From: Fibrobacterota bacterium
Lineage (GTDB): Bacteria > Fibrobacterota > Fibrobacteria > UBA11236
Length of the DNA stretch: 36,367 nt
Assembly (NCBI GenBank): GCA_023249635.1
Contig: JAHFCH010000044.1
Span: forward strand, 1-36,367
Reading direction: 5' to 3'
The stretch's first letter is position 1, and each line of letters starts with the position of its first letter. Below the pieces are notes generated by a model. The model searched no databases, was not told the DNA's origin, and worked only from the letters and a program-made list of their open reading frames with translations. The position numbers were made by a program, and so were the translations under genes. This document shows, piece after piece, positions 5,780 through 21,972 of this stretch.

Positions 5780-7133
5780 TCCAGAACCGGACCCAGGCCA
5801 GGTAGGCCGCGCAGCCCGCCAGTAAACCCAGCATCCGCGGCCACAACGCCCCGGGCCTCCCCGCATACAGCGAAGCCAGCCACCATCCGGTGAAAACCAC
5901 ATCCGCCCCCAGGGCCCACATCGGCAGGGATTCCGGGCTGCCCAGGTAGGTTCCGGCCGCCACCGCGCCGGCATTGGCCGCCCCGGCGATGAGGAAACGT
6001 CCGCAATACGTCCAGGATCGGCCCGTCGCGAGCGCCTGGGTCAACGGAGGCATGCGCAAGAGATGCAGGTAAGTGGATAGCCCCATCACCGCCAGGGCCC
6101 AGGCCGCGTAGCCCAGGGTGGCCGCATCCCAACCCGCGCGCGGGAACAACAGCATGAGCAGGTGCTTGGCCAGGAAAGGCGCGCAGGCCAGGGGCAATGC
6201 CAGGGCGACGGCCATGCCGTCGAAAGCGCGGCGCAGGGATTGGCCCGGATCACCCACCCGCGCCGCGAAGCGGGGCAAGAGCACCAGGAAAATGGAGGAA
6301 GCGAAAAGCGAAGCGGCTACGATCACGCGGTAGGCCGCGCCGTACGCGCCCATCATGGCGTTCTCGCCGCGCAGCTCGCGGTAGACGTAATACCCCAGGG
6401 GCAGGAACAGGAAATCGCTGAAGCCGGTGATGGCGATGGGGAGCGCGCGCGCCCACAGCCAAGCCATACGCCGCGAGGTTGGGCCGGGCCAGGGCAGGCG
6501 CGTTCCCTTACCCCCCTCTGACGCCCGCGCCAACAGGAAGCCGAAGGAGACCGCGGCTCCCGCCGAGAACGCGCAGGCCGCCGCCGGCAACGAGGGCGAG
6601 CGGCGCACCCAGAACCACGCCAACAGGAAGGTCGCGGCGCCTCCCAGCAGACGGTGGGCGATGAGATCGCTCCAGCGCTGGCGCGCTACCGACCACCATT
6701 CCAACTGCGCCGCGTTGAACATCACCGCCGGGGCCAGCGCCAGACCCGTAACCGCCATGCTACGGGTGCGGAAGCCGTTCTCGAAGGCCAGGTACAAAAT
6801 GACGGCTGCGAGGGAGGTCCACCAACGGGTCCCCATCGCCAGCGCGAAGGCGCGATCGGAAAAGCGCGCGCGCACCGCCAGGGTTACCGAAGGCCCCGGC
6901 AGGGCGAAGTTCGCCAGGTTGGAGAAGATGGTGAAGTCCAGCAGGCATACCGCGTATTGCCCGAAACGTTCCAGGCCCAGGCAGGCCGTGAATACCGAAA
7001 GCGCGGCGAAGTTGAGGACCTGTCCCGTGGCCAGGGAAGCGAAGACCCAGGCCGTCGGCCGGGCCGGGAGGATTTCCGCCACCGCGGCCGCGCGCAAACC
7101 GGCGGCCCCGACTCCGGGAATGCGCTCAGCCAT
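5775..7133 (-). CDS. Wzx-like polysaccharide flippase (MATE/MVF-type membrane protein)
   Basis: A 452-residue protein with about twelve hydrophobic segments. The pattern of the first helices (LATGQVLNFAALSVFTAC, then LERFGQYAVCLLDFTIFS) fits the oligosaccharide flippase/MOP superfamily, where the first helices carry G-x-x-x-x-N and a conserved FG-x-Y/F turn. Such proteins flip undecaprenyl-linked repeat units to the outer face of the inner membrane. Its place between a deacetylase-like gene and a GT-C-like gene supports that role. The start overlaps the preceding gene by eight bases (7126-7133), so translation is probably coupled. Confidence 0.75.
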   Translation of the reverse strand: MAERIPGVGAAGLRAAAVAEILPARPTAWVFASLATGQVLNFAALSVFTACLGLERFGQYAVCLLDFTIFSNLANFALPGPSVTLAVRARFSDRAFALAMGTRWWTSLAAVILYLAFENGFRTRSMAVTGLALAPAVMFNAAQLEWWSVARQRWSDLIAHRLLGGAATFLLAWFWVRRSPSLPAAACAFSAGAAVSFGFLLARASEGGKGTRLPWPGPTSRRMAWLWARALPIAITGFSDFLFLPLGYYVYRELRGENAMMGAYGAAYRVIVAASLFASSIFLVLLPRFAARVGDPGQSLRRAFDGMAVALALPLACAPFLAKHLLMLLFPRAGWDAATLGYAAWALAVMGLSTYLHLLRMPPLTQALATGRSWTYCGRFLIAGAANAGAVAAGTYLGSPESLPMWALGADVVFTGWWLASLYAGRPGALWPRMLGLLAGCAAYLAWVRFWM

Positions 7134-8574
7134 CCACGCCTACGTAACGCGCGCGCGTCCCCAGGGGATCGAAATCCGGCAGGCCGCGGGCATCGCACCA
7201 GGCGATGAGGTCGGAATAGACCCGGCCATGCCCGGGGAATTCGGCTTCGTGGAAGTATTGATTGTGGAAGAGTACCGTGAATACGCCTCCATGCTTGCAG
7301 GCGGTATCCAGGTAACGGCGCAAGGTAGCCCGCACCGCGTCGGCGTCGAACGCGAGCGGATCGTAGAACTGGAATTCGGCCAGGATCAAGGGGACTTCCA
7401 GCAAGGACGTGGGGCGATCGGCGGCGCAATCGAACCACAGGAAAGGCCAAGCCGTTCCGCAGCGGAAGCCCGGCGAATCATTGTACCCAAGCGTAGAGTC
7501 GACCTGGATGCCTGCGGCTTCAAGATGGGCGAAGGTGCGGGCCGCGTCCCAACGCAGGTAATGCTGACGGTTGAGGCGCGTAGGCGCGCCCGCCAAGGAC
7601 GAGAACTTGTCCGCCTCGGCGCGGATGCCGGCGGCATCGGAAATGCAATGGACCTGACCATGCAGGCCCACCTGCTTGCCCGGGGCCTGGCATTGCCGGA
7701 GTATACGCAGGTAACGTGGATGGGACAGTTCGTAGCGATGGAACAGGTGATCGCGCCCGTTGGCGAGCAGGAAGCTGGCCGATCGCCGTTTTCCTTCGAG
7801 CGCGTATACGACATCCATGACATCATACGGATCCTTGCCGCTGAACGCACGCACGGCGATTTCGCCCCAGTTGCGCCGCAGCAGGCCGAGATGGCCTCCG
7901 GCCAGGTAGCGCGGCGCGCGCAGGATCTGGCCCGCCACCGAGCGCGGACGCCACTTGGAAAGGCTGTCGAGATCGTGGGTGAACCACACGGACGCCTGCG
8001 CGGGTAAAGCCGCGATACGGGTGCGCAAGCGGGGCAACAGCCCCAGCAGCAGGAACATCCAGTCGTCGACCCTGGGTTGGGTATCCAACCCGAAGTCGGC
8101 GTCGGGGAGATCGCGGTATACCGCCTCCCGGGATGCGCGGGCAAAGCGCGGTAGCCGTTCGGCCCGCCGGAAAAGGATATCGGCGCAGAAGGAAAGCAGA
8201 TCCCAATCGGCGAGAATGGCATCGCCGACGCGCAGTAAAGCGCGATCCTCGCAGGCATCCAGGATTTCGGTGGCGCCGGAAAAGGCGGCCACGTGGGATG
8301 CTGGTCCCGCCGCATCGGCGGCCGGCACGATCATCCCTTGGTTGGTCGCAAGGCATGCGAGCGCGGATTCCAGCGTCGGGCGTCCGGGAAAAATCAGGCA
8401 GGGATCCGGAGACGCCTCTACCTGGCGGTCCCAATGGATATCGGCAACCCCTTCATCGATCTCGGTCACGCCCAGGCCCAGATGACGGGCGTAGGTCCGG
8501 ATTAGATGGAGGACGGCGTTGTGGTTGGGATTCGTTCGGTTGCCGCGGAACCGCAAGGGATCGGGCGAAGCCAT
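7126..8574 (-). CDS. Polysaccharide deacetylase-like (NodB-fold) protein
   Basis: A 482-residue protein from the ATG at 8574; an open extension to 8661 is made of upstream repeat sequence and is rejected. The N-terminal ~190 residues look like the accessory region seen in long deacetylase-like proteins. The C-terminal half has VWFTHDLDSLSKW (about 195-207), equivalent to the metal-binding D-D motif of the NodB fold. GLHGQVH (about 303) fits the H-x-x-x-H type position, RQHYLRW follows, and a late FHNQYF fits the catalytic-His strand. NodB enzymes remove N- or O-acetyl groups from surface glycans. It is the first gene of the seven-gene minus-strand operon; no signal peptide is seen, so it may act in the cytoplasm. 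Confidence 0.7.
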   Translation of the reverse strand: MASPDPLRFRGNRTNPNHNAVLHLIRTYARHLGLGVTEIDEGVADIHWDRQVEASPDPCLIFPGRPTLESALACLATNQGMIVPAADAAGPASHVAAFSGATEILDACEDRALLRVGDAILADWDLLSFCADILFRRAERLPRFARASREAVYRDLPDADFGLDTQPRVDDWMFLLLGLLPRLRTRIAALPAQASVWFTHDLDSLSKWRPRSVAGQILRAPRYLAGGHLGLLRRNWGEIAVRAFSGKDPYDVMDVVYALEGKRRSASFLLANGRDHLFHRYELSHPRYLRILRQCQAPGKQVGLHGQVHCISDAAGIRAEADKFSSLAGAPTRLNRQHYLRWDAARTFAHLEAAGIQVDSTLGYNDSPGFRCGTAWPFLWFDCAADRPTSLLEVPLILAEFQFYDPLAFDADAVRATLRRYLDTACKHGGVFTVLFHNQYFHEAEFPGHGRVYSDLIAWCDARGLPDFDPLGTRARYVGVDG

Positions 8575-8582
8575 GGTCCCGG

Positions 8583-8591
8583 AATATAGCA
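8583..8591 (-). promoter_or_regulatory. Extended -10 element upstream of the glycan operon
   Basis: On the minus strand TGCTATATT has the TGn plus TATAAT-like pattern of an extended -10 box. Only eight bases separate it from the ATG at 8574, so a transcript would start almost at the start codon and have little or no leader. No convincing -35 was seen. Confidence 0.4.
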
Positions 8592-8608
8592 AGGTCACAC
8601 GCCCTGGG

Positions 8609-8644
8609 CGCTTCGTCCCGCGTACGGGACGCTTCGTCCCGCGT
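8609..8644. repeat. Duplicated 15-base element with internal hairpin in a divergent promoter region
   Basis: CGCTTCGTCCCGCGT occurs at 8609-8623 and again at 8630-8644, a 21-base spacing or about two helical turns. Between the copies CGTCCCG-CGTA-CGGGACG (8614-8631) can form a seven-base stem. The element lies between the divergent deacetylase-like operon and the GT4 gene, where a regulator site would be expected. Confidence 0.5.
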
Positions 8645-8721
8645 TGACGCCCGCCGGGCACAATCGTAGTTTGCCTCGCCGGGCAGGGTCGGCCGTCCCC
8701 GACCGGGCGGCCGCGGAAAGC

Positions 8722-12374: not shown

Positions 12375-12401
12375 AGCGGGCGCAGGTAACGACTACCCGC
12401 T
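12375..12401. terminator. Weak stem-loop between convergent genes
   Basis: AGCGGG at 12375-12380 pairs with CCCGCT at 12396-12401 across a 15-base loop, directly between the GT2 stop and the PorZ-like stop. There is no U-run, so this is only a possible terminator. Confidence 0.25.
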
Positions 12402-14673
12402 ACCGGGCCACGATGATCTTGCCGTGGCGGGTTTCCTTGGGGGAACGGGCCACCCAGAAGTACACCCCTTCGCGCACGCGCTCCCCGCCTTGGTTGCGGC
12501 CGTCCCAGCGGATTTGATCGCCGGCGCCGCCGGAGGTAAGCGAACGATGGTAGACCACCGATCCCGATTGCGTCAGCACTTGCACTTCGCTTCCCGCGGA
12601 TAGCCCGTCGAACACCACCTGGGCATGCTTGGAAAGGAACGGGTTGGGATAGACCTTGATGTCGGAAAGGTCGGAACGGACGGGGCGGGAAGCGCTTTCG
12701 TATCGGGCCAGGCCCTTCTCGGTGGTGACCCAGATGTCGCCGTTATCGGGGTTGACCGAAAGGTTGTAGATGACCTCGGAGAGCACGCCGTCATTGAGCC
12801 CGTATTTGCGGAAGGCATGGGAAACGCTGTCGCGGCCCGGAGTGATTTCGAATACGCCGCCTTCCGTGCATCCCGTCCAGAGATGACCCAGCTTATCGAT
12901 TTCGAGATTGTGGCACGCCGTTCCCGAGAAACCCTCAAGGCTATGGAAGGCTTGGCCGGTGTCGGCCTTGTATTGCAACGCGGGAACGAACAGCATGCGC
13001 GTGCCTTCCGTAGTAACCCAGAAGTTACCGCGCCGATCGGCCTGGCCCGCGAGGGTGGGCTCCGGCGTGGAAGGCAGGCTCGTCAGCAGGTTGGCCGTCT
13101 CCAGCGAGACCAGGCCGCCGTTATCCTTGATGCGGTAAGCCTCCAGCCCCTGTTCCGTGACCACGGCCAGCACGGAATCGCCCACCACGGAAACGCTATG
13201 CGATTCCTTGTCGCGGTTCTGCGGCTCGAAGCAGGAGATTTTCCCGGAAGCCAGATCATAGTATGCCAGGCGATAGCGCTCGAAGGCGCTGTACATCCCG
13301 ATGAAGTAACCCTTATCGCGGTACGGGGCCTGCGCCTGTACGGCCGGGAAATTCGGATCCTTGGCGTCGGCGGTGCGCAGGCAGGAATTGACGGCATCGA
13401 AATGGGTTTCCGTCCCGGACCGCAAGGTGGTGTAGCCGCCGCCCCAGTTGCCGACCAGGAAGTCCTGCGGGCCTACCGGAGCGAAGCTATGCAGGCCGCG
13501 GCGCTTCGATTCGACGGCGTCGTTGGGGACGGACAGGAAAGCCACCGAATCCCAGCGATTTCCGTGGAGCTGGTAAACCAACGGCACGGCCCAGCCGAAT
13601 ACCCCGTAGCGGTTGGCATGGGTGCTGATGATTTCGTGCAAGGGGAGCCCATCGGCGCTCGTCAAAGGGTAAAAGATGTCCGGCGTTTTCCAATCCTCGT
13701 TGGCCGGCTGGAAGCGGAACATGTTGTTGGCATGGCCCAGATACCAATGGCCTCCCGCGAAGGCCAGGGCCTGCAGCCCGAAAGGATTCCGGAATGGCTT
13801 GCCGTCGAGTTCCATCACCGACGAGTACCGCGAGATTTTCGCGGGGGGGTCAGTCAGCGCCATACCGTCGAATTCGCTGGCGATACCCTTCTCGGTATAG
13901 AAAAGCATCCCGTGGGCCTTGGCCGCATCGTTTTCCGCGGGCATGTGGCGTGAAGTGTCCATTACCGGAGGGTTGGTATCGCCCGGGGCGGGATCGGGAT
14001 GGACGGGATCGTAGAACAGTCCGCCCTTGGTGATTTCGGTCCAGATGCCGGGATTGAAAATGTTCACCTGCGGATCGCTCAGCAGTTTGTCCAGATGCAA
14101 CACGGCACGGAAGATGCCCACGCCCGTGCCGGCGAAAAGGGTGTCACCCTGGAAGAGCAGCGAGTTGACCGAGAATCCCGAAGCGGTGGCCATCTTGGAA
14201 ACATTGGCCTCGGCAATCTTACGCTTTACGTTGAAGAAGCTGAGCCCCTTGTCGCTGCCCAATACCAGATAACCGGCGCGGTACGCCATGGCGCGCTTGT
14301 TCATGCGCCAGCCCGCTCCCTTGTACGAGGTTCCCAGCACCTCCCAGGTATCCGCGACCCAATCGTACCGGTATAGGAAGCCAAGCTCGGAAGCGGCGAA
14401 CACGGTGCCTTCGGGGCTGACCGCCAAAGCGTTGATGCCCACGTCCCGCAATCCCTGCTGGTTCCGGTAGGTCTTTTCCTCATCGTTGGCGGGATTGATC
14501 TTGCGCACCCCGCCGGCGGTGGCCGCGAACACCAAGCCCTTGGCCACCTTGAGATCGCGGATGCTCTGCACGTAGGTATAGCTGGTCCAGTCCCCGACGA
14601 GCGCCGTCGTGAGGGAGGCGCACGCCATTACGATGGCGCAAGCGGACGCGCAGGCGGAGGCCAAGGGTTTCAT
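12400..14673 (-). CDS. PorZ-like double beta-propeller protein with C-terminal FlgD-like/T9SS domain
   Basis: A 757-residue exported protein. A signal peptide (about 1-26) leads into VGDWTSYTYVQSIRDLKVA and then FAATAGGVRKI, NQQGLRDVGINALAV and FAASELGFLYRYD. These are regularly spaced blades like the two-component-regulator propeller and the PorZ N-terminal propeller. Later blades include GDIWVTTEKGLARYES. From about residue 667 a C-terminal Ig-like domain begins with DIKVYPNPF, contains IRWDGRNQGGERVREGVY and ends KIIVAR, like FlgD_ig/T9SS type A domains. Length and architecture match P. gingivalis PorZ (two propellers plus a C-terminal domain), the T9SS attachment-complex subunit that binds anionic LPS. 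It could instead be a general T9SS-exported propeller. Its ATG overlaps the oxidoreductase stop as ATGA. Confidence 0.65.
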   Translation of the reverse strand: MKPLASACASACAIVMACASLTTALVGDWTSYTYVQSIRDLKVAKGLVFAATAGGVRKINPANDEEKTYRNQQGLRDVGINALAVSPEGTVFAASELGFLYRYDWVADTWEVLGTSYKGAGWRMNKRAMAYRAGYLVLGSDKGLSFFNVKRKIAEANVSKMATASGFSVNSLLFQGDTLFAGTGVGIFRAVLHLDKLLSDPQVNIFNPGIWTEITKGGLFYDPVHPDPAPGDTNPPVMDTSRHMPAENDAAKAHGMLFYTEKGIASEFDGMALTDPPAKISRYSSVMELDGKPFRNPFGLQALAFAGGHWYLGHANNMFRFQPANEDWKTPDIFYPLTSADGLPLHEIISTHANRYGVFGWAVPLVYQLHGNRWDSVAFLSVPNDAVESKRRGLHSFAPVGPQDFLVGNWGGGYTTLRSGTETHFDAVNSCLRTADAKDPNFPAVQAQAPYRDKGYFIGMYSAFERYRLAYYDLASGKISCFEPQNRDKESHSVSVVGDSVLAVVTEQGLEAYRIKDNGGLVSLETANLLTSLPSTPEPTLAGQADRRGNFWVTTEGTRMLFVPALQYKADTGQAFHSLEGFSGTACHNLEIDKLGHLWTGCTEGGVFEITPGRDSVSHAFRKYGLNDGVLSEVIYNLSVNPDNGDIWVTTEKGLARYESASRPVRSDLSDIKVYPNPFLSKHAQVVFDGLSAGSEVQVLTQSGSVVYHRSLTSGGAGDQIRWDGRNQGGERVREGVYFWVARSPKETRHGKIIVAR

Positions 14674-15683
14674 GCGGTTACCGGTGCTACGGGTTTGCCG
14701 CCCTGGGCCATGGAGGCCTGGGCCGCTTCCACCAGCCGAACGATGCGTTCGCCTGCGTCCCCGCCTATGGCCGTGGGCGCGCCATTGTGCAGTACCTCAT
14801 GCACGTGGGCCACCAGCTTCCGCAAGGCTTCGACCTGGGGCAGCTTGGGGATAACGATATCGCCGGTGCGGTAATCGACGAGCAGGGAATGCTTGATGCC
14901 TTCGGGCTTACGCTCCACGCCGTGATCGTACACGCGCAGCTTTTCCGAGGGTTCGGTGTCGTCGAAGAGGATCATCTTGCGCGATCCGCCGATCAGGGTT
15001 TTGCGCACCTTGACCGGGGAAAGCCAGTTGAAATTGAAATGGCAGATCATCCCGCTCGCATAGGTGAAGGTCACGTAGGCGAGGTTCTCCACGTCTTTGT
15101 CGAGATGCCCCGCGCCCACGGCAGCCACGGTGGCGGGCTTTTCGTCGAGCAGGAAATCCACGATGGAGAAATCGTGCGGGGCCAGATCCCAGACCACGTT
15201 GGTGCGCTCCTGGAACAACCCCAGGTTGATGCGCGTGGAATCGAAGTAGCGCAAATCGCCCAGGTCTCCCGAGACGATGGCCGATTTGATGTACTCGATG
15301 GCGGGATTGAAGAGAAAGGTATGGTCGACCAGGATGCGCAGGCCCTTGGCGGCCGCCCGCAGATTCAACTCGCGGCAATGGCCCGACTCCAGCGCCATGG
15401 GCTTTTCGATGAGCAGGTGCTTGCCCGCATCCAGCGCCGCCATGCCCAGGGCATGATGGGTTTCCGGAGGCGTGGCCAAGACGACCAGATCGATATCGGC
15501 GGCGAGGGCGGCGGAAAAATCCTGGGACAGCGGCAGCGAAGGGTAGATGGCGCGGACGGATTCCAGGCGGGCCGGATCCTTATCGATCACGGCGCCGACG
15601 CGGAAATGCGGCGAGGAGAAAAAATTGCGGATGAGATTGGGACCCCAATAACCGCAACCGACTATCGCCACACGTGTCAGCAT
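14670..15683 (-). CDS. Gfo/Idh/MocA oxidoreductase (WbpB/WlbA type)
   Basis: A 337-residue NAD(P)-dependent sugar dehydrogenase. The N-terminal Rossmann motif is VAIVGCGYWGPNLIRNF (residues 5-21) and the family EKP motif (LLIEKPMAL, 90-98) supplies the active-site Lys. The conserved WDLAPHDFSI region carries the catalytic-side His. G-x-WG-x-N and WDL-PHD are typical of the WlbA/WbpB branch that oxidises UDP-GlcNAcA at C3. The frame is open upstream to 16004, but the ATG at 15683 begins the domain; upstream sequence belongs to the LpxK-like gene, overlapped by seven bases. The 3' end overlaps the PorZ-like start by four bases, so the three genes are probably translated as a coupled unit. Confidence 0.88.
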   Translation of the reverse strand: MLTRVAIVGCGYWGPNLIRNFFSSPHFRVGAVIDKDPARLESVRAIYPSLPLSQDFSAALAADIDLVVLATPPETHHALGMAALDAGKHLLIEKPMALESGHCRELNLRAAAKGLRILVDHTFLFNPAIEYIKSAIVSGDLGDLRYFDSTRINLGLFQERTNVVWDLAPHDFSIVDFLLDEKPATVAAVGAGHLDKDVENLAYVTFTYASGMICHFNFNWLSPVKVRKTLIGGSRKMILFDDTEPSEKLRVYDHGVERKPEGIKHSLLVDYRTGDIVIPKLPQVEALRKLVAHVHEVLHNGAPTAIGGDAGERIVRLVEAAQASMAQGGKPVAPVTA

Positions 15684-16753
15684 CGGGGGTAATGTACCAA
15701 ATATCGGTTCCGCGGGAGTAGCTGCAGGCGCGCTTCCAGGGCCTGCCAAGCCGCCGCATCCAACCGCGTTTCCCGGTCGATGACAAGCACGGGAGGAAGC
15801 CCTGCCACCCCCGCCAGCTTCAAGCCTTCCTTGCGCGTACAAAGTATGGCGGCGCCGGGATGGCGCGCGGCAGCGGCCTTGAGGCGCCCCAGTGGCGCGG
15901 GCCCGTGATTGCGCCCCGGTACGGTCTCCAGAATGCGGACGCCGGCGCGGCGCAGCTCCTCCAGAAAGGGCTGGTTGTTCCCCAGGGCGCAATGCACGAT
16001 GCAAGGCGCGTCCCAGCCATCGGGAAGCATCATCGGGCGAGTGAATCCCGGGCCGGGTAACGTGTCAGTTACGGAGGCGGGTCCCGTTAGGATCAAATCG
16101 GCCCGCGCCGCAGCGGAAACGGTTTCGCGGAACGGCCCCCCGGGCAGCAGATCGAACAGGCCGGGCCGCTCACCCGGAGCCATCAGCGCAATATGGACGG
16201 CGCCCGGCAAGCGCGGATCCTGGTACCCATCATCGGAGACGAGCGTATCGAAGGGTTCGCCCCCGACCGCGCCCCCGGCCAGCCTTTCCCATGCCCGCGC
16301 ACGGTTCCGTGTCACGAATACCCGGATTCCTGATTCGCGCCGCAGCAGCACGGCTTCTTCCGAAGTGGCTCGCCAATCCGAATCCGGAAATACCTCGATG
16401 GGATCGGCGCTCGAGCCGTCGCCGGGACCGATGCGGTAAGCCAGGATCGCCGGTCGACGGCCACGCAGTTGGAGACCTTGGGCCAAGGCCAGGGTCACGC
16501 TGGTTTTCCCCGAGCCTCCCGAGCGCAAAGCCCCGACTACGACCATGGGCAAACGTGACGGGGCGGACGCCCTGGAACGGGGAAAGCCCACACGCATCCA
16601 GGCCCGATGAGCGCGGGAGAAAGCCCAGTAAAGCGGTGAAAATGCCGCTAAAACCCGGTGGGGCCGCCACAGTTGCCGGCCCCAATCTTCGCAAATCCGG
16701 GCTGCGCCTAAAAAGGGCCTAAAAGCTGACAAAATTGAATTCCTGGCGGCCAC
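15677..16753 (-). CDS. lpxK: Tetraacyldisaccharide 4'-kinase (lipid A kinase)
   Basis: A 358-residue protein of LpxK length. LpxK phosphorylates the 4'-position of the lipid A disaccharide at the inner membrane. The Walker A region is VGALRSGGSGKTS (canonical VGN-x-x-x-GGTGKTP, so three conserved positions differ). The EEAVLLRRESGIRVFVTRNR segment matches the E-P-x-L-x-x-R region. SDDGYQD matches the DDGFQ catalytic motif, and LLPGGPFRET matches the LPAGPLRE motif. Translation may start at the GTG at 16753 or at an internal TTG at 16732 that has AGGA eight bases upstream. It is the first gene of the lpxK-oxidoreductase-PorZ-like group and is divergent from the DUF2225 gene. Confidence 0.85.
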   Translation of the reverse strand: MAARNSILSAFRPFLGAARICEDWGRQLWRPHRVLAAFSPLYWAFSRAHRAWMRVGFPRSRASAPSRLPMVVVGALRSGGSGKTSVTLALAQGLQLRGRRPAILAYRIGPGDGSSADPIEVFPDSDWRATSEEAVLLRRESGIRVFVTRNRARAWERLAGGAVGGEPFDTLVSDDGYQDPRLPGAVHIALMAPGERPGLFDLLPGGPFRETVSAAARADLILTGPASVTDTLPGPGFTRPMMLPDGWDAPCIVHCALGNNQPFLEELRRAGVRILETVPGRNHGPAPLGRLKAAAARHPGAAILCTRKEGLKLAGVAGLPPVLVIDRETRLDAAAWQALEARLQLLPRNRYLVHYPRC

Positions 16754-16843
16754 GTGGGATAATGGTTGCGTTGCTCAGGCTGGATGCCGCGCGCTCTGGA
16801 AATCTAGCTATTCCACGGGTTTGCGCCCCAGGTAAGGATGCGT

Positions 16844-17818
16844 ATGGGATTGGACGATAAGCTGGTCCGTAAGAAGCTGGAGGTGCTCCTCAAGGACGAG
16901 GTCCTGGTGGAGAAATACCTGCGGGTATTCGGGCCGCGCCTGGATATGAACAACATCAACAAGCTCAAGCAGGAGACCCAGCGCGCGGGCGCGCCCGAGG
17001 GCAGCATGGGGGACAAGGATGACCCGACCTACCAGATCAAGGTCAAGTGCCCCATCTGCAATCAGGCCGACATCATCTGCTACGAACTCAAGGCCAAGAG
17101 CCTCACCACCACTCCGGACAAGTTCCTGGTTCCGCGCTATGGGGGCGTCAAACCCTTCCGTACCATCAACTATAGCCTCTACTCCGTCACCGTTTGCCCC
17201 TCGTGCCTGTTCGCATCGCCGGACAAGCGCGACTTCGTAACCTTTTCCGTACAGGCCCGCACCGAAAACAAATCCCAGCTGAGCCCCTTCGTGCTGGAAG
17301 AGTTGCGCAAAAGGGTGGAAGATCGGAAGAAGATCGTTACGGCGCCCGATTTCGCGGCCTACTTCAAGCATCCGCGTTCGCCCGAATCGGGCATGGCGAG
17401 CTACAAGTTGGCCATCCACCGCACGCTGGTGGAAGCCTCCCTGGAAACGCCCCTGGCCTGGTACAAAGCGGGCATGTACACGCTCAAGATCGCGCTTATC
17501 CAGCGCGATATCGGCAGGGACGATACCGACTCGCTCAAGGAAGCGGTCAAGTACTTCGCGAATTCGTTCAAGGCCAGCGAGCTCAAACAGCCCGAGTTGG
17601 AATACCAATTGGTCTACCTGCTTTCCACCCTGTTCCTGCGTATCGAGGATCAGACCCAATGCCAGTTGTATATGGGCGTCCTGGAGAAGTGGAAGTCGGA
17701 GCTGACCAAGGCGGCCAAAGACGATCCCAGCATCACCACCGCCCACGTCGACCGCTGGATCGACAAGACCAAAGAGCTGTGGACCGATCGCGAACAGCCG
17801 GATCTGTGGAAGCATTAG
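16844..17818 (+). CDS. DUF2225 zinc-ribbon protein
   Basis: A protein of about 324 residues. The ATG at 16844 is preferred over the ATG at 16838 because TAAGGA is well spaced before it. Two cysteine pairs, KCPICNQ (about 68-74) and VCPSCLF (about 117-123), form a probable zinc site flanked by YELKAKSL and NYSLYSVTV, the pattern of DUF2225. The C-terminal half is helical with TPR-like stretches (AWYKAGMYTLKIALIQRD, LEYQLVYLLSTLFLR). Function is unknown for the family. It lies 25 bases or less before the PorV-like fusion gene on the same strand, suggesting a shared transcript and perhaps a shared envelope process. No signal peptide is visible, so it is probably cytoplasmic. Confidence 0.8.
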   Translation: MGLDDKLVRKKLEVLLKDEVLVEKYLRVFGPRLDMNNINKLKQETQRAGAPEGSMGDKDDPTYQIKVKCPICNQADIICYELKAKSLTTTPDKFLVPRYGGVKPFRTINYSLYSVTVCPSCLFASPDKRDFVTFSVQARTENKSQLSPFVLEELRKRVEDRKKIVTAPDFAAYFKHPRSPESGMASYKLAIHRTLVEASLETPLAWYKAGMYTLKIALIQRDIGRDDTDSLKEAVKYFANSFKASELKQPELEYQLVYLLSTLFLRIEDQTQCQLYMGVLEKWKSELTKAAKDDPSITTAHVDRWIDKTKELWTDREQPDLWKH

Positions 17819-17843
17819 CGTAGCAACGCCCGGATGAGTGCGC

Positions 17844-20831
17844 ATGGCCAAGTTCCCTGCCGCCGCGCGTAAGCGCGCGCGGTCCCTTCTCCTCCCGCTA
17901 TTGATCGCCTTGCCCGGCGGGGCCCGGGCGTTCGATCTTAATGGCGGCGGCCTCGTCGATTTCGACGGCTCCGGCGCGGGCGTCCCCGCCCTCGGATTCC
18001 TCAAGCTTCCGTCTTCGGCCCGGGGCGTAGGCATGGGCACGGCCAGCCTCACCACCGATGAAGAAGCCACCATGGTCCAGGGCAATCCCTCGCTGCTGGC
18101 GCTGGTCGAAGATTACTACTACGCGGTTTCCCACGCGGAAATCCTCGGCGAGTTCCGTCACGAGAACCTGGCCTTCACCTATCCCACCCAGGCCTACGGG
18201 AATTTCGGCGGCGCGGCCCGCATCCTGGCGGCCACCACCTTCGAGGATGCGCGCGACATCGACGAGAACCGTTCCCAGCCTTCGGCCTACGATTTGGCCT
18301 TGGGGCTTTGCTACGGCAAGACCATCTGGGAAGACCACGTGAGCGCGGGAGGCCGGCTGGATCTGATCCACAGCAACGTGGACAAAGCCACCGCCAACGG
18401 TTACGCGCTCAATGCGGGCATCCTCTTCATGCTGGTCTCCGATCTGCGGCTGGCCTTCACCGTCAATAACCTTTCCCACGGTATCACCTACGATGACCAT
18501 AGCGGGGCGCCGAGCGAACCGCTTCCCTTCTCCTTCGGCTTGGAGCTGGGCAAGCCCTTGCTCGACTCGCGTTGGTCCGGGCAGGTAGGCGCCTCCCAGG
18601 GGAACGACGGCATCACCCGGTACTACCTGGGAGCCGAATGGCGCATGATCAAATACATGCTGATACGCGCCGGCTACAACGGTTCCAGCCAGGATCGCGA
18701 ATTGGGGCCATGGAGCGGCATGGCGACGGGACTGGGGATCAAATACGATCGCATCACCCTCGACTACGGCTACCAATCCATGGGCCCGTTGGGCGACTAC
18801 CATGCCTTCACCCTAAGCTATTCGCATAAATCCAAGTTCCGGCCGCGCGACGAGATTTACCTGGAACGGGCGCAGGCGAAATTCCGGGCGGGCGATTACC
18901 GCAAGGCCTTGTCGTTGGCGCGCAGCGCCATTACGGTCAATCCTTACAACTTCAAGGCGCAAGCGCTGGCGCAGAAGGCCGCGTTGGAACTGGATCGGTT
19001 GGACGAGATGGCCGTGACCATCGCCTATACCGCCAACACCGATGGCCGCCTGGCTTCGGAATGGCGCGACGGGCGCCCCATGGGCGGGCTGCCGCGCCGC
19101 AAGACCAAGCTGCTGGAACTCAAAGGCGCCGAGGGCCGTATGCTCATCGTAGACGCCGGCGACCTGACGAATCCGGCCTCCAAGCTGGACAAGGAGAAGT
19201 ACGTCTACGGCGCTTATGCGCAGATGCCCTATGACCTGGTCAATATGGGGGCCGCGGAACTGACCCTGGGAGCCGATCGCTGGGACAGCCGCCTGCCCTT
19301 CATGGCTTCGCAAATCCCCCTCGAATCCATCCATCCCGTGCTCAAGGAAAAATCCCTCAAGCTCAAGCACGGCGCCGAAGTGCTGGTGTTGGGCGCCTTG
19401 GACCCGAAGGCGGTCAAGGCCGAGGCCCTGGGAGGCAAGGAACTCGAAGGCGTCGCCGAAGCCGTGCGCCGCCGCGCGGGCCCTGCACGGGACAATCGCA
19501 TCCTGGTACTGCTTATGCACGGCAGCGTGACCGGCGCCAAACAGTTGGCCGCCAAAGTCCCCGAGCTCGATGTCATCATCCTTTCGGGCGAAGCGCTGCA
19601 ACTGGGTAGTCCCATGAAGGCGGGCAAGACCTTGATCTGCTCGCCGGGCAAGGGCGGAACGCATGTCGGAGAACTGACATTGCAACTCGACAAGAACGGC
19701 CAACTGCGTTCCTTCCGCCACTCCCTGGTGCCCCTGGACGCGGCCACCCCCGAGGATCCCGAGCTGAAGAAATTCCTGGAGCCGGTGACGGTCGATCCCA
19801 ACAAGGTCGGTTTCGACGACGCCGATGACGATTACCGCGGCCAGGTGCTGGCCTACGTAAATGCCGAAGCCCCGGGCAAAGGCGGCGATGTATACCTACG
19901 CGATCTGCGCACGGCGCGCGACTACCATCTCCCGGCGCCCGGCCTGCTTTGCTCGCGCCCTATCCTGGGCTACGGCAAGAACAAGGTGGCTTTCGAGGGC
20001 GAGGATGCTTCCGGCGCCCGGGAAATCTACGCCTTCGAGCCCGGCCTCGATCGCCTGGATACCCTTACGTCCCTGCACGGGCATGCGGGGGAGCTGCGGT
20101 GGATCCTGCGCAACAACGCGCTCTTGGCGGGCTACGAGAAGGCCGGAAAATCGGAATTGTACCGCATCGACCCCTGGAGCCGCGAAGTGCGCAACCTGAC
20201 CAAGGGCCGCTTCGGCAACGTAGCCGGCTTCGATGTTTCGCGCGCGGGCGATCGCCTGGCCCTGAACGGCGAGGACGGCAAGGGGGGTACCATCTGGGTT
20301 ACCAATGCCGAGCTCGAATCCCCCCTGGCCGTGGCCTCGGACCGGGCCTTCCTGGGTTCGCCCCGTTGGAACCCCGCCGGCGACAAGCTGGCCTTCCTTA
20401 CCCTCTCGCCGCCCGATAGCGCCGCCGCCTCCGATACCGCGGGCCGGGGAGCCGCCATGGGGCCCATAGGTCCCGCCGGAGAACTACGCGTATTCGACTT
20501 CGCGGGCAAGGTCCTCATCAACGCCACGGCCCAGAGCCGGGTGCGCAGCTTCGCCTGGTCCGCCGACGGCAAGCGCATCTTCTACTCGGCGGGCGTGAAC
20601 CTTTCCGACGTGAACGTATTCCACCTCGATTCCATGACCCTCTCCAAGGTGACCCCGGGATTGTCCGGACCCCGCAGCGAGGATAATCCCGTGCCCAAGA
20701 TGCTGGGCGATCGCGACGGCTTGCTCTTCGAAGCCGCCACGGGAGATAGCCGACGCATCCTCTGGATGGATCTGAAGACGCGCGAAGAGCGCGTGCTCGC
20801 CGATTCCGCCGGCAACAACTCCCTCAAGTAG
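17844..20831 (+). CDS. PorV/PorQ-like barrel fused to a degenerate metallophosphatase and a TolB-like propeller
   Basis: A 995-residue exported protein (ATG at 17844; a GTG at 17838 is possible). The signal peptide ends near GGARA. Residues ~45-335 are PorV/PorQ-like: GFLKLPSSARGVGMGTASL followed by QGNPSLLA matches the family's FLK-x-P-x-x-AR-x-x-xMG-x-A and NPA motifs, then comes a barrel of beta-strands. A TPR-like helical pair follows (~337-388). Residues ~390-650 resemble the N-terminal 5'-nucleotidase metallophosphatase domain (TIAYTANTDGRL, LIVDAGD), but the usual GNHE is GADR and the terminal GHxH is replaced by SGEA. A six-bladed TolB/PD40-like propeller (~665-995) ends the protein. 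PorV shuttles T9SS cargo at the outer membrane; this fusion may be a cargo-handling variant, and the middle domain is probably non-catalytic. Confidence 0.75.
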   Translation: MAKFPAAARKRARSLLLPLLIALPGGARAFDLNGGGLVDFDGSGAGVPALGFLKLPSSARGVGMGTASLTTDEEATMVQGNPSLLALVEDYYYAVSHAEILGEFRHENLAFTYPTQAYGNFGGAARILAATTFEDARDIDENRSQPSAYDLALGLCYGKTIWEDHVSAGGRLDLIHSNVDKATANGYALNAGILFMLVSDLRLAFTVNNLSHGITYDDHSGAPSEPLPFSFGLELGKPLLDSRWSGQVGASQGNDGITRYYLGAEWRMIKYMLIRAGYNGSSQDRELGPWSGMATGLGIKYDRITLDYGYQSMGPLGDYHAFTLSYSHKSKFRPRDEIYLERAQAKFRAGDYRKALSLARSAITVNPYNFKAQALAQKAALELDRLDEMAVTIAYTANTDGRLASEWRDGRPMGGLPRRKTKLLELKGAEGRMLIVDAGDLTNPASKLDKEKYVYGAYAQMPYDLVNMGAAELTLGADRWDSRLPFMASQIPLESIHPVLKEKSLKLKHGAEVLVLGALDPKAVKAEALGGKELEGVAEAVRRRAGPARDNRILVLLMHGSVTGAKQLAAKVPELDVIILSGEALQLGSPMKAGKTLICSPGKGGTHVGELTLQLDKNGQLRSFRHSLVPLDAATPEDPELKKFLEPVTVDPNKVGFDDADDDYRGQVLAYVNAEAPGKGGDVYLRDLRTARDYHLPAPGLLCSRPILGYGKNKVAFEGEDASGAREIYAFEPGLDRLDTLTSLHGHAGELRWILRNNALLAGYEKAGKSELYRIDPWSREVRNLTKGRFGNVAGFDVSRAGDRLALNGEDGKGGTIWVTNAELESPLAVASDRAFLGSPRWNPAGDKLAFLTLSPPDSAAASDTAGRGAAMGPIGPAGELRVFDFAGKVLINATAQSRVRSFAWSADGKRIFYSAGVNLSDVNVFHLDSMTLSKVTPGLSGPRSEDNPVPKMLGDRDGLLFEAATGDSRRILWMDLKTREERVLADSAGNNSLK

Positions 20832-20961: not shown

Positions 20962-21972
20962 ATGTGGAAGCCCCGTTCCAAGGCTATCGCCATAGCCATC
21001 GCATTCATGTCCCTTTCCACCCTTTGCGCGTTGCCCGCCCGGTCCGCCGGCGAGGTGGCCGTGGTCCGCGCCAGCTCCCGGCTGATGCTGGATACCGCGC
21101 GCATCTCCGACTCCGCCGCCGCCGCCGACAGCAACGCCTCCCAGTCCGTCTATCTGCAAATCCTCATCCAGAACCTGGCATACGAGAAGATCGTGGAGTT
21201 GCTTATCCGCAACGATACCGCCTGGGATACCATTCCCTGCCGCTGGGTGCGCCAGGCCGACGACGATTTCGAATACTGGGAGGCTAGCAAACAATACGGC
21301 CTCACCAACAACCATACGGCGCCCCGCGATTTGGAATTCAAGTTGCGTTACGTGGTGAACAAGACCACTTACTGGGCCGACAACGGGGGCAAGAATTACC
21401 TGCTCGCCAAGAACGGCGGAAGCCTGCTGCCCGGCAACGGGATAGCGTTCAAGAACTGCCGGTGGGAACTCGACACCGGTCTCAACGCCGACACTTCCGT
21501 GTTCACGGGCGAAGCGGACGTGCGCGGCTGGAAAGCCGGCGCCTCCATGACCGTGGTCTACTCGCCCGACAACCTGCAGACCCAGGGATTCTTCACCGTC
21601 AAGGATGAGCCCGCGCCCACCTGGCTGGGCGACGCGCCCGCCGACTCCGATGCCGTGCGTACCTACAAGTTCCGCGTCAGCGGCATCAAGCTCCCCTACT
21701 CGAAGCTGCCCGTGCTCAACTTCCACCTCAAGTACTGGGACGGCGTCAAGGATTGGCGCGATGACAACCGCCATAACCGCTACGCCATCATGCTCGGCAG
21801 CAAGCTGGATGATTTGTTCTATGAGGAATTGCCTTTGCCCGCGGCCCTGGGACGCCGCTTCGAAGGCGGCAATGCGCGGTATCCCCTCCGCTCGCGCATC
21901 CAACCCGGATGGTCCCCGGTTTATAGTGCCGGCTCACGCGGATTCTTCGATGGGATGGGGAGAAGCAGGTAA
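20962..21972 (+). CDS. Exported CBM21-like carbohydrate-binding protein
   Basis: A 336-residue protein with a signal peptide (about 1-29, cleaved after PARSA) and its own promoter and ribosome site. Residues ~62-150 resemble a family 21 carbohydrate-binding module. LQILIQNLAYEKIVELLIRN matches the V-x-V-x-NLAFEK-V-x-VR strand, DTAWDTIPCRWV the D-x-W strand, DDFEYWE the D-x-F-x-F strand, and YWADNGGKNYLL the W-D-NN-x-GKNY motif. CBM21 modules bind starch, glycogen or related glucans. The second half (160-336) is unrecognised; it may hold a second beta-rich module. No catalytic domain is present, so the protein may be a binding subunit or a surface sensor. A strong hairpin separates it from the convergent lipoprotein gene. 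Confidence 0.65.
   Translation: MWKPRSKAIAIAIAFMSLSTLCALPARSAGEVAVVRASSRLMLDTARISDSAAAADSNASQSVYLQILIQNLAYEKIVELLIRNDTAWDTIPCRWVRQADDDFEYWEASKQYGLTNNHTAPRDLEFKLRYVVNKTTYWADNGGKNYLLAKNGGSLLPGNGIAFKNCRWELDTGLNADTSVFTGEADVRGWKAGASMTVVYSPDNLQTQGFFTVKDEPAPTWLGDAPADSDAVRTYKFRVSGIKLPYSKLPVLNFHLKYWDGVKDWRDDNRHNRYAIMLGSKLDDLFYEELPLPAALGRRFEGGNARYPLRSRIQPGWSPVYSAGSRGFFDGMGRSR

Follow-up and report, generated by a model that had tools for sequence, protein, structure and literature searches.

The barrels of the PorV/PorQ family are known as stand-alone proteins of the type IX secretion system (T9SS). What, then, should one make of a gene in which such a barrel is followed, in the same reading frame, by a 5'-nucleotidase-type domain with a damaged catalytic site and by a beta-propeller? 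The gene lies in a stretch of 36,367 nucleotides of a Fibrobacterota contig (JAHFCH010000044.1, hereafter the window). A first-pass annotation, made from the letters of the DNA alone, had read in its product a PorV/PorQ-like N-terminal domain, a TPR-like pair, a 5'-nucleotidase-type domain and a TolB-like propeller. Profile searches and a structural model confirm this composition, the order being predicted signal peptide, plug and 14-strand FadL/PorV-type barrel, TPR-like pair, 5'-nucleotidase fold and beta-propeller (Table 1). The fusion gives a known family of barrels a new architecture, and it is both real and conserved; among the titles and abstracts searched we found no report of a PorV fusion.

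Table 1. The fusion gene, its parts and its neighbours in the window (residues are numbered with the GTG codon at 17838 as residue 1)
Feature	Position	Strand	Remarks
PorZ-like propeller protein with T9SS-type tail	12400-14673	-	NF052228, E 1.6e-37, below cut-off
LpxK (lipid A 4'-kinase), divergent neighbour	15677-16753	-	PF02606, E 2.2e-38
DUF2225 gene, 25 bp upstream of the fusion	16838-17818	+	PF09986, E 1.5e-17; CPIC and CPSC Cys pairs
Fusion gene	17844-20831	+	995 aa from ATG; GTG at 17838 also possible (997 aa)
Predicted Sec signal peptide MAKF...GGARA, without lipobox Cys	17844-17930	+	Read from the sequence
Plug and 14-strand FadL/PorV-type barrel, residues 45-330	17970-18827	+	NCBIfam PorV_fam, AlphaFold2 model
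ARDIDE signature, residues 138-143, beta3-beta4 loop, putatively extracellular	18249-18266	+	
TPR-like helical linker, residues 338-388	18849-19001	+	Weak TPR_14 match, model helices
Pseudo-5'-nucleotidase (calcineurin-like) domain, residues 390-650	19005-19787	+	Profiles, model, alignment
Degenerate DxH metal motif, N400-T-D402	19035-19043	+	Alignment
DAGD, residues 439-442	19152-19163	+	Alignment; present here, last position D/N/E/R in the family
GAAE, residues 471-474, equivalent of GNHE	19248-19259	+	Alignment
SGEA, S583-G584-E585-A586, equivalent of GHxH	19584-19595	+	Alignment
C-terminal beta-propeller, residues 665-992	19830-20813	+	Profiles, model (seven blades)

The gene is one uninterrupted reading frame, present in a single copy in its genome, and its orthologs measure about 950-1040 aa throughout Fibrobacterota. 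The idea that assembly or annotation has artificially united unrelated genes has no point in its favour and is refuted by dozens of assemblies, independent of one another, that show the same single-frame layout with identities of about 20-73%; we give it practically no weight. Since this same architecture recurs in independent assemblies, and since dN/dS lies between 0.17 and 0.33 in every domain within the genus, the fusion is not a product of chance.

How close is the barrel to PorV itself? For the protein as a whole Pfam returns only weak TPR and PD40 signals (TPR_14 at 339-375, E 0.0012, under the cut-off), and the barrel is caught by the NCBIfam model PorV_fam (NF033709), which matches residues 51-329 with E 3.5e-31 and 109 bits, above its curated cut-off of 90. 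An AlphaFold2 model of the mature protein, built from 12 aligned sequences (mean pLDDT 74.7; pTM 0.47, so that the relative placement of the domains is unreliable), contains plug helices, 14 strands (residues 93-330), three TPR-like helices at about 338-388, an alpha/beta domain and a propeller. It has a barrel where the first-pass annotation expected one (residues 45-335) and a calcineurin-like fold within the predicted residues 390-650, and it displays the structural feature of the PorV/PorQ family, a 14-strand FadL-type barrel with a plug. With VIA-align the model barrel superposes on FadL 3pgr (Z 30.5, 275 residues, 3.9 A) and on PorV 6h3i_F (Z 29.9, 281 residues, 4.2 A, 20% identity), and it is equally near FadL, CymD and PorV; Foldseek agrees with these matches for both barrel and nucleotidase, and a profile built from the orthologs matches PorV 6h3i_F with E 9e-10. 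The description "PorV-like" holds, therefore, at the level of the PorV/PorQ family and not below it: the protein scores 25.9 bits against the T9SS PorV equivalog (NF033710, cut-off 250) and 73.7 bits against the PorQ equivalog (NF033711, cut-off 220), and another protein is the best PorV match of the genome. The PorQ cut-off may be too strict for Fibrobacterota, since no protein in any of the 31 genomes scanned reaches it. Finally, the barrel carries a signature of its own, F..ARDIDE (residues 135-143), nearly invariant in the fusion family except in genus g21 (some members show small variants) and absent from every other PorV-family frame examined. By strand order it should lie in the beta3-beta4 loop (a poorly modelled region), which would face outwards if the ends of the barrel are periplasmic as in FadL.

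Other unusual PorV-family proteins came to light during these searches. The genome of the window encodes a second PorV fusion (L179:962-3622 (-), on G000:C310), in which about 500 residues, forming a propeller of the two-component-regulator type, separate the plug from the first strand of the barrel, and frames like it occur in nearly all of 21 genomes scanned (for example L124-L143). As it gives the best match to PorV_fam (179 bits) and to T9SS PorV (108 bits), this second, propeller-bearing protein may be the real PorV of the phylum. A genome of another phylum (G282) has PorV-type barrels with long TPR arrays, of 670-700 aa (L162:825-2834 (-) and L163:1474-3573 (-)), and a third frame (L164:1-1830 (-)) where repeats of other kinds and an OmpA-like end come after the barrel. 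C-terminal tails may be commoner on PorV barrels than described.

The domain that follows the linker has kept the fold of the 5'-nucleotidase/UshA superfamily. Residues 412-621 match the UshA-like PCGU model (UshA_like_PCGU, NCBIfam NF041198; E 1.7e-16, 59.9 bits against an equivalog cut-off of 275), and there is a further match, also below the equivalog cut-off, to SoxB (E 4e-9). A profile of 26 orthologous domains matches solved 5'-nucleotidases with E 1e-23, and the model superposes on them with Z 29.5 (263 residues of 2z1a at 2.8 A; 270 residues of 3ivd_A at 2.9 A). The metal motifs of the superfamily (DxH, GDxx, GNHE, H, GHxH) have not fared as well. The catalytic degeneration noticed in the first-pass annotation extends to all orthologs covering the sites, none of which has DxH, GNHE or GHxH. 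That annotation was correct in reading SGEA for GHxH and in finding DAGD kept; the equivalent of GNHE is GAAE, however, and not the GADR at 478-481 that it had proposed, and the loss of DxH (N400, D402), which it did not mention, appears in the alignment. Two of the roughly six metal-ligand positions survive in the fusion protein, D442 and H561 (by alignment the His of SHxG), and neither is conserved in the family: among the orthologs covering the site, the last residue of DAGD may be D, N, E or R. What the family does retain is structural, namely the GGLxR residues and the SPG/SAG..G loop.

When was the catalytic set lost? In a midpoint-rooted tree the nucleotidase domains of the fusion proteins form one clade with respect to outside relatives (branch support 99/96). 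Outside the phylum they are closest, for the most part, to UshA-like proteins bearing a Cys/Sec motif; DxH and GNHE are missing from most of these too, but SHxG is still there, and often GHSQ. Read most simply, some of the motif loss is common to the UshA-like Cys/Sec lineage and the remainder occurred in the stem of the fusion family; this polarity is inferred, since the root was placed at the midpoint. Within the genus, dN/dS is 0.17-0.30 for the barrel, 0.20-0.31 for the pseudo-nucleotidase and 0.22-0.32 for the propeller, and a value for the pseudo-nucleotidase like that of the barrel indicates that the domain is retained under selection. Given motifs lost in every member, a single clade and purifying selection, we consider that the domain, judged by its sequence, is inactive in every member and represents an ancestral pseudoenzyme, not a case of recent decay. 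One might object that the domain could still be catalytic, its metal site having been rearranged as in the Cys/Sec UshA-like relatives, many of which do without DxH and GNHE while keeping SHxG and GHxQ and bearing the Cys/Sec motif; D442 and H561 are, after all, still present. But in the fusion family the Cys/Sec motif is missing too, and every candidate ligand varies, be it the final D of DAGD, the His of SH or the GHxH positions, which makes this reading very improbable. Several of the UshA-like relatives (L176, L177, L178, L180 and L181) have an in-frame TGA in the CGU motif, and C-terminal CxxCH heme motifs, belonging to a multiheme cytochrome part, are found in several of them, L176, L177, L180 and L181 among others.

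The C-terminal part is indeed a propeller, but probably not of the TolB kind that had been suggested. The TolB model (TIGR02800) matches residues 668-862 with E 1.4e-7 and 30.9 bits, against an equivalog cut-off of 343, and the ortholog-built profile matches TolB with E 3e-11. In the model, however, the propeller looks seven-bladed, whereas TolB has six blades. Modelled alone (pLDDT 76.5, pTM 0.78), it best resembles the propeller of an S9 peptidase (8wt1_C; Z 27.6, 302 residues, 2.9 A), and the other top matches are seven-bladed kinds.

Each of the five remaining genomes of the genus has a full-length ortholog (62-73% identity), as do one genome of the same order (G010, 32%) and one of the same class (G055, 28%). 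Profile matches, most of them full length and in one frame, are found in 43 of 168 Fibrobacterota genomes and in 25 of 41 genera, a count that takes in a few matches cut by contig ends or without a barrel. A scan of genome contigs for close relatives with the single protein gave no match; a search with a mixed alignment returned 11 loci, all from Fibrobacterota. The named loci with the fusion belong to Fibrobacteres, Chitinivibrionales, Chitinispirillaceae and other Fibrobacterota MAGs. Two genomes (G084 and G085) have orthologs of 663-673 aa that keep the pseudo-nucleotidase and the propeller alone (L096:7188-9176 (-) and L097:7499-9517 (+)); since these sequences nest inside the fusion family, the barrel was probably lost in their lineage, and it is evidently not always needed. 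In the genomes searched outside Fibrobacterota the fusion was not found, the matches listed being separate barrels (as a rule frames of about 300-350 aa) or separate nucleotidase domains. As the first-look candidates were partly scored (two per genome in one scan, nine in another, and three genomes only in a third), the absence of the fusion beyond the phylum is likely rather than certain. Apparently we are dealing with a Fibrobacterota family of outer-membrane proteins, inherited vertically, in which the joining predates the diversification of the phylum.

Does the neighbourhood tell us in which process the protein takes part? In the window LpxK, a GFO-type oxidoreductase gene and the PorZ-like gene are divergent from the fusion and DUF2225. 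The order fusion-DUF2225-LpxK-PorZ is kept through the genus and in G010 and not further, that is, in the window's order only, and the adjacency of DUF2225 and the fusion is seen in two families. In other lineages the fusion has just housekeeping neighbours (Smr, Tgt and others), so that no operon partner emerges beyond DUF2225. The identity of the latter is clear (PF09986, 64.5 bits for a gathering score of 21); no signal peptide is seen in its sequence, and phmmer found no solved relative. The neighbour had already been pointed out from the sequence, with the suggestion to survey Fibrobacterota for co-occurrence, and this survey shows that the association is real and wider than the neighbourhood. 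Counting strong DUF2225 matches only, 38 of the 43 fusion genomes have DUF2225, several of the others being incomplete assemblies, and by genus 23 have both, 2 the fusion only, 2 DUF2225 only and 14 neither (Fisher p 3.5e-7, uncorrected for relatedness). Genome size alone does not explain this pattern, since the small genomes of g21 (2.0-2.9 Mb) mostly have both genes and the larger Fibrobacter-type genomes (3.5-4.1 Mb) neither. Just downstream of the fusion, in some members of the genus only, there is a gene for a small secreted CBM21-type carbohydrate-binding protein (20962-21972 (+) in the window). A VimE-like deacetylase of the anionic-LPS pathway (7126-8661 (-)) shares a surface-polysaccharide region with the PorZ-like gene, and the two genes in one region hint at an A-LPS-like anchor in Fibrobacterota.

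We think that the fusion is best explained as a non-catalytic protein, anchored in the outer membrane and equipped with a periplasmic binding arm, that serves as an adaptor or scaffold, and we put the probability of this joint reading at about 0.55. By analogy with the FadL family, whose 14-strand barrels start and finish on the periplasmic side, the barrel would serve as the outer-membrane anchor, and linker, pseudo-nucleotidase and propeller would form a periplasmic arm. The pseudo-nucleotidase, whose active site would have been lost before the phylum diversified, may offer a surface to which a partner protein or ligand binds, and the propeller a second one; the ARDIDE loop may make a contact at the cell surface or close to it. 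As a whole, the protein would act as an adaptor between the outer-membrane surface and periplasmic partners, in a pathway that may also employ DUF2225, a zinc-ribbon protein of the cytosol; the likeliest candidates for the process served are protein export and the biogenesis of the envelope. The earlier suggestion of a binding module is supported, but an arm that should lie in the periplasm cannot simply hold surface cargo, and we found no evidence of a phosphorylated ligand for the domain. A more specific version is tentative and clearly less probable than the general one: a phylum-specific trans-outer-membrane adaptor in which the barrel has been turned from a channel or shuttle into an anchor, the extracellular ARDIDE loop and the periplasmic arm connect a process at the surface with machinery of the periplasm, and DUF2225 is an obligate cytosolic helper.

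Two other roles deserve discussion. The barrel model is as near FadL and CymD as PorV, and the N-terminal plug is retained, so one may picture a channel of the FadL type that takes up a small compound, hydrophobic or phosphorylated, with the periplasmic domains receiving or sensing the solute; we regard this as unlikely, no conserved transporter gene adjoining the fusion. About equally unlikely, in our opinion, is a T9SS component standing in for PorV or PorQ (as a substrate shuttle or PorZ anchor) with extra periplasmic domains. The attachment complex PorU:PorV:PorQ:PorZ has been described in P. gingivalis, where PorQ anchors PorZ (PMC5562754), and proteomic work has led to the proposal that Fibrobacter uses the T9SS (PMC6851124). 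In favour of such a role, the fusion belongs to the PorV/PorQ family, it scores higher with the PorQ model than with the PorV model (73.7 against 25.9 bits), and there is a PorZ-like gene within a few kb of it in 6/6 genomes of the genus and in G010. Outside the window's order, however, PorZ is not adjacent, and the same genomes contain better PorV and PorQ candidates. A core component should be present wherever the T9SS is, and while PorU and PorZ models match in 61/61 relatives, the full-length fusion is found in 8/61; it is absent from genus g4 (Fibrobacter-like) and from genus g2 (of the window's own family), though these models match there. Since the protein falls under both equivalog cut-offs, and T9SS-positive Fibrobacter-type genomes are without it, identity with the T9SS PorV or PorQ is rejected, and a role in the T9SS is possible, though not a core one. 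Genomes of this genus carry two tandem PorU sortase homologs, namely the genome of the window (G000:C210:5305-11918) as well as G002 and G005, on contigs of theirs.

If it is an adaptor of the specific kind outlined above, the fusion would reveal a new envelope system of Fibrobacterota. It also offers a clean example of an outer-membrane protein that incorporates a conserved pseudoenzyme, predicted to be periplasmic, the 5'-nucleotidase fold being kept after the loss of catalysis. Its link with DUF2225, a zinc-ribbon protein that is widespread but whose function is unknown, provides a testable lead on the latter, and PorV-like barrels, given the second, propeller-bearing PorV, prove to be a flexible platform in this phylum.

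It remains to compare the fusion with known systems. By sequence, the closest relatives of its nucleotidase domain are the UshA-like PCGU proteins (NF041198), UshA, CD73 and SoxB, which have the same calcineurin-like fold; these proteins mostly keep SHxG and GHxQ or GHxH, with either DxH/GNHE or Cys/Sec, whereas the fusion family has lost the catalytic set and carries the domain attached to a barrel. With TolB and S9-peptidase (PD40-type) propellers it shares PD40-like repeats in sequence and the propeller fold, but it has neither the N-terminal domain of TolB nor a peptidase domain, and seven blades in the model instead of the six of TolB. PorE of the T9SS is a periplasmic protein at the outer membrane that combines TPR and beta-propeller, a lipoprotein with an OmpA-like domain; in its domain make-up it resembles the fusion by pairing TPR and propeller, but it has no barrel. 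PorV (PDB 6h3i_F / 8gl6_F) and PorQ have the same 14-strand FadL-type barrel with a plug, but they are barrels alone, whereas the fusion has about 600 more residues after the barrel and an ARDIDE loop peculiar to its family. Finally, BamG of the Flavobacterium BAM complex is essential, occurs in most FCB phyla and has its partner on the outside, while the fusion is missing from many Fibrobacterota; in BamG, nevertheless, a FadL-like barrel likewise serves as a scaffold for an accessory protein, and this provides a precedent for the role that we favour here (PMC12611786).
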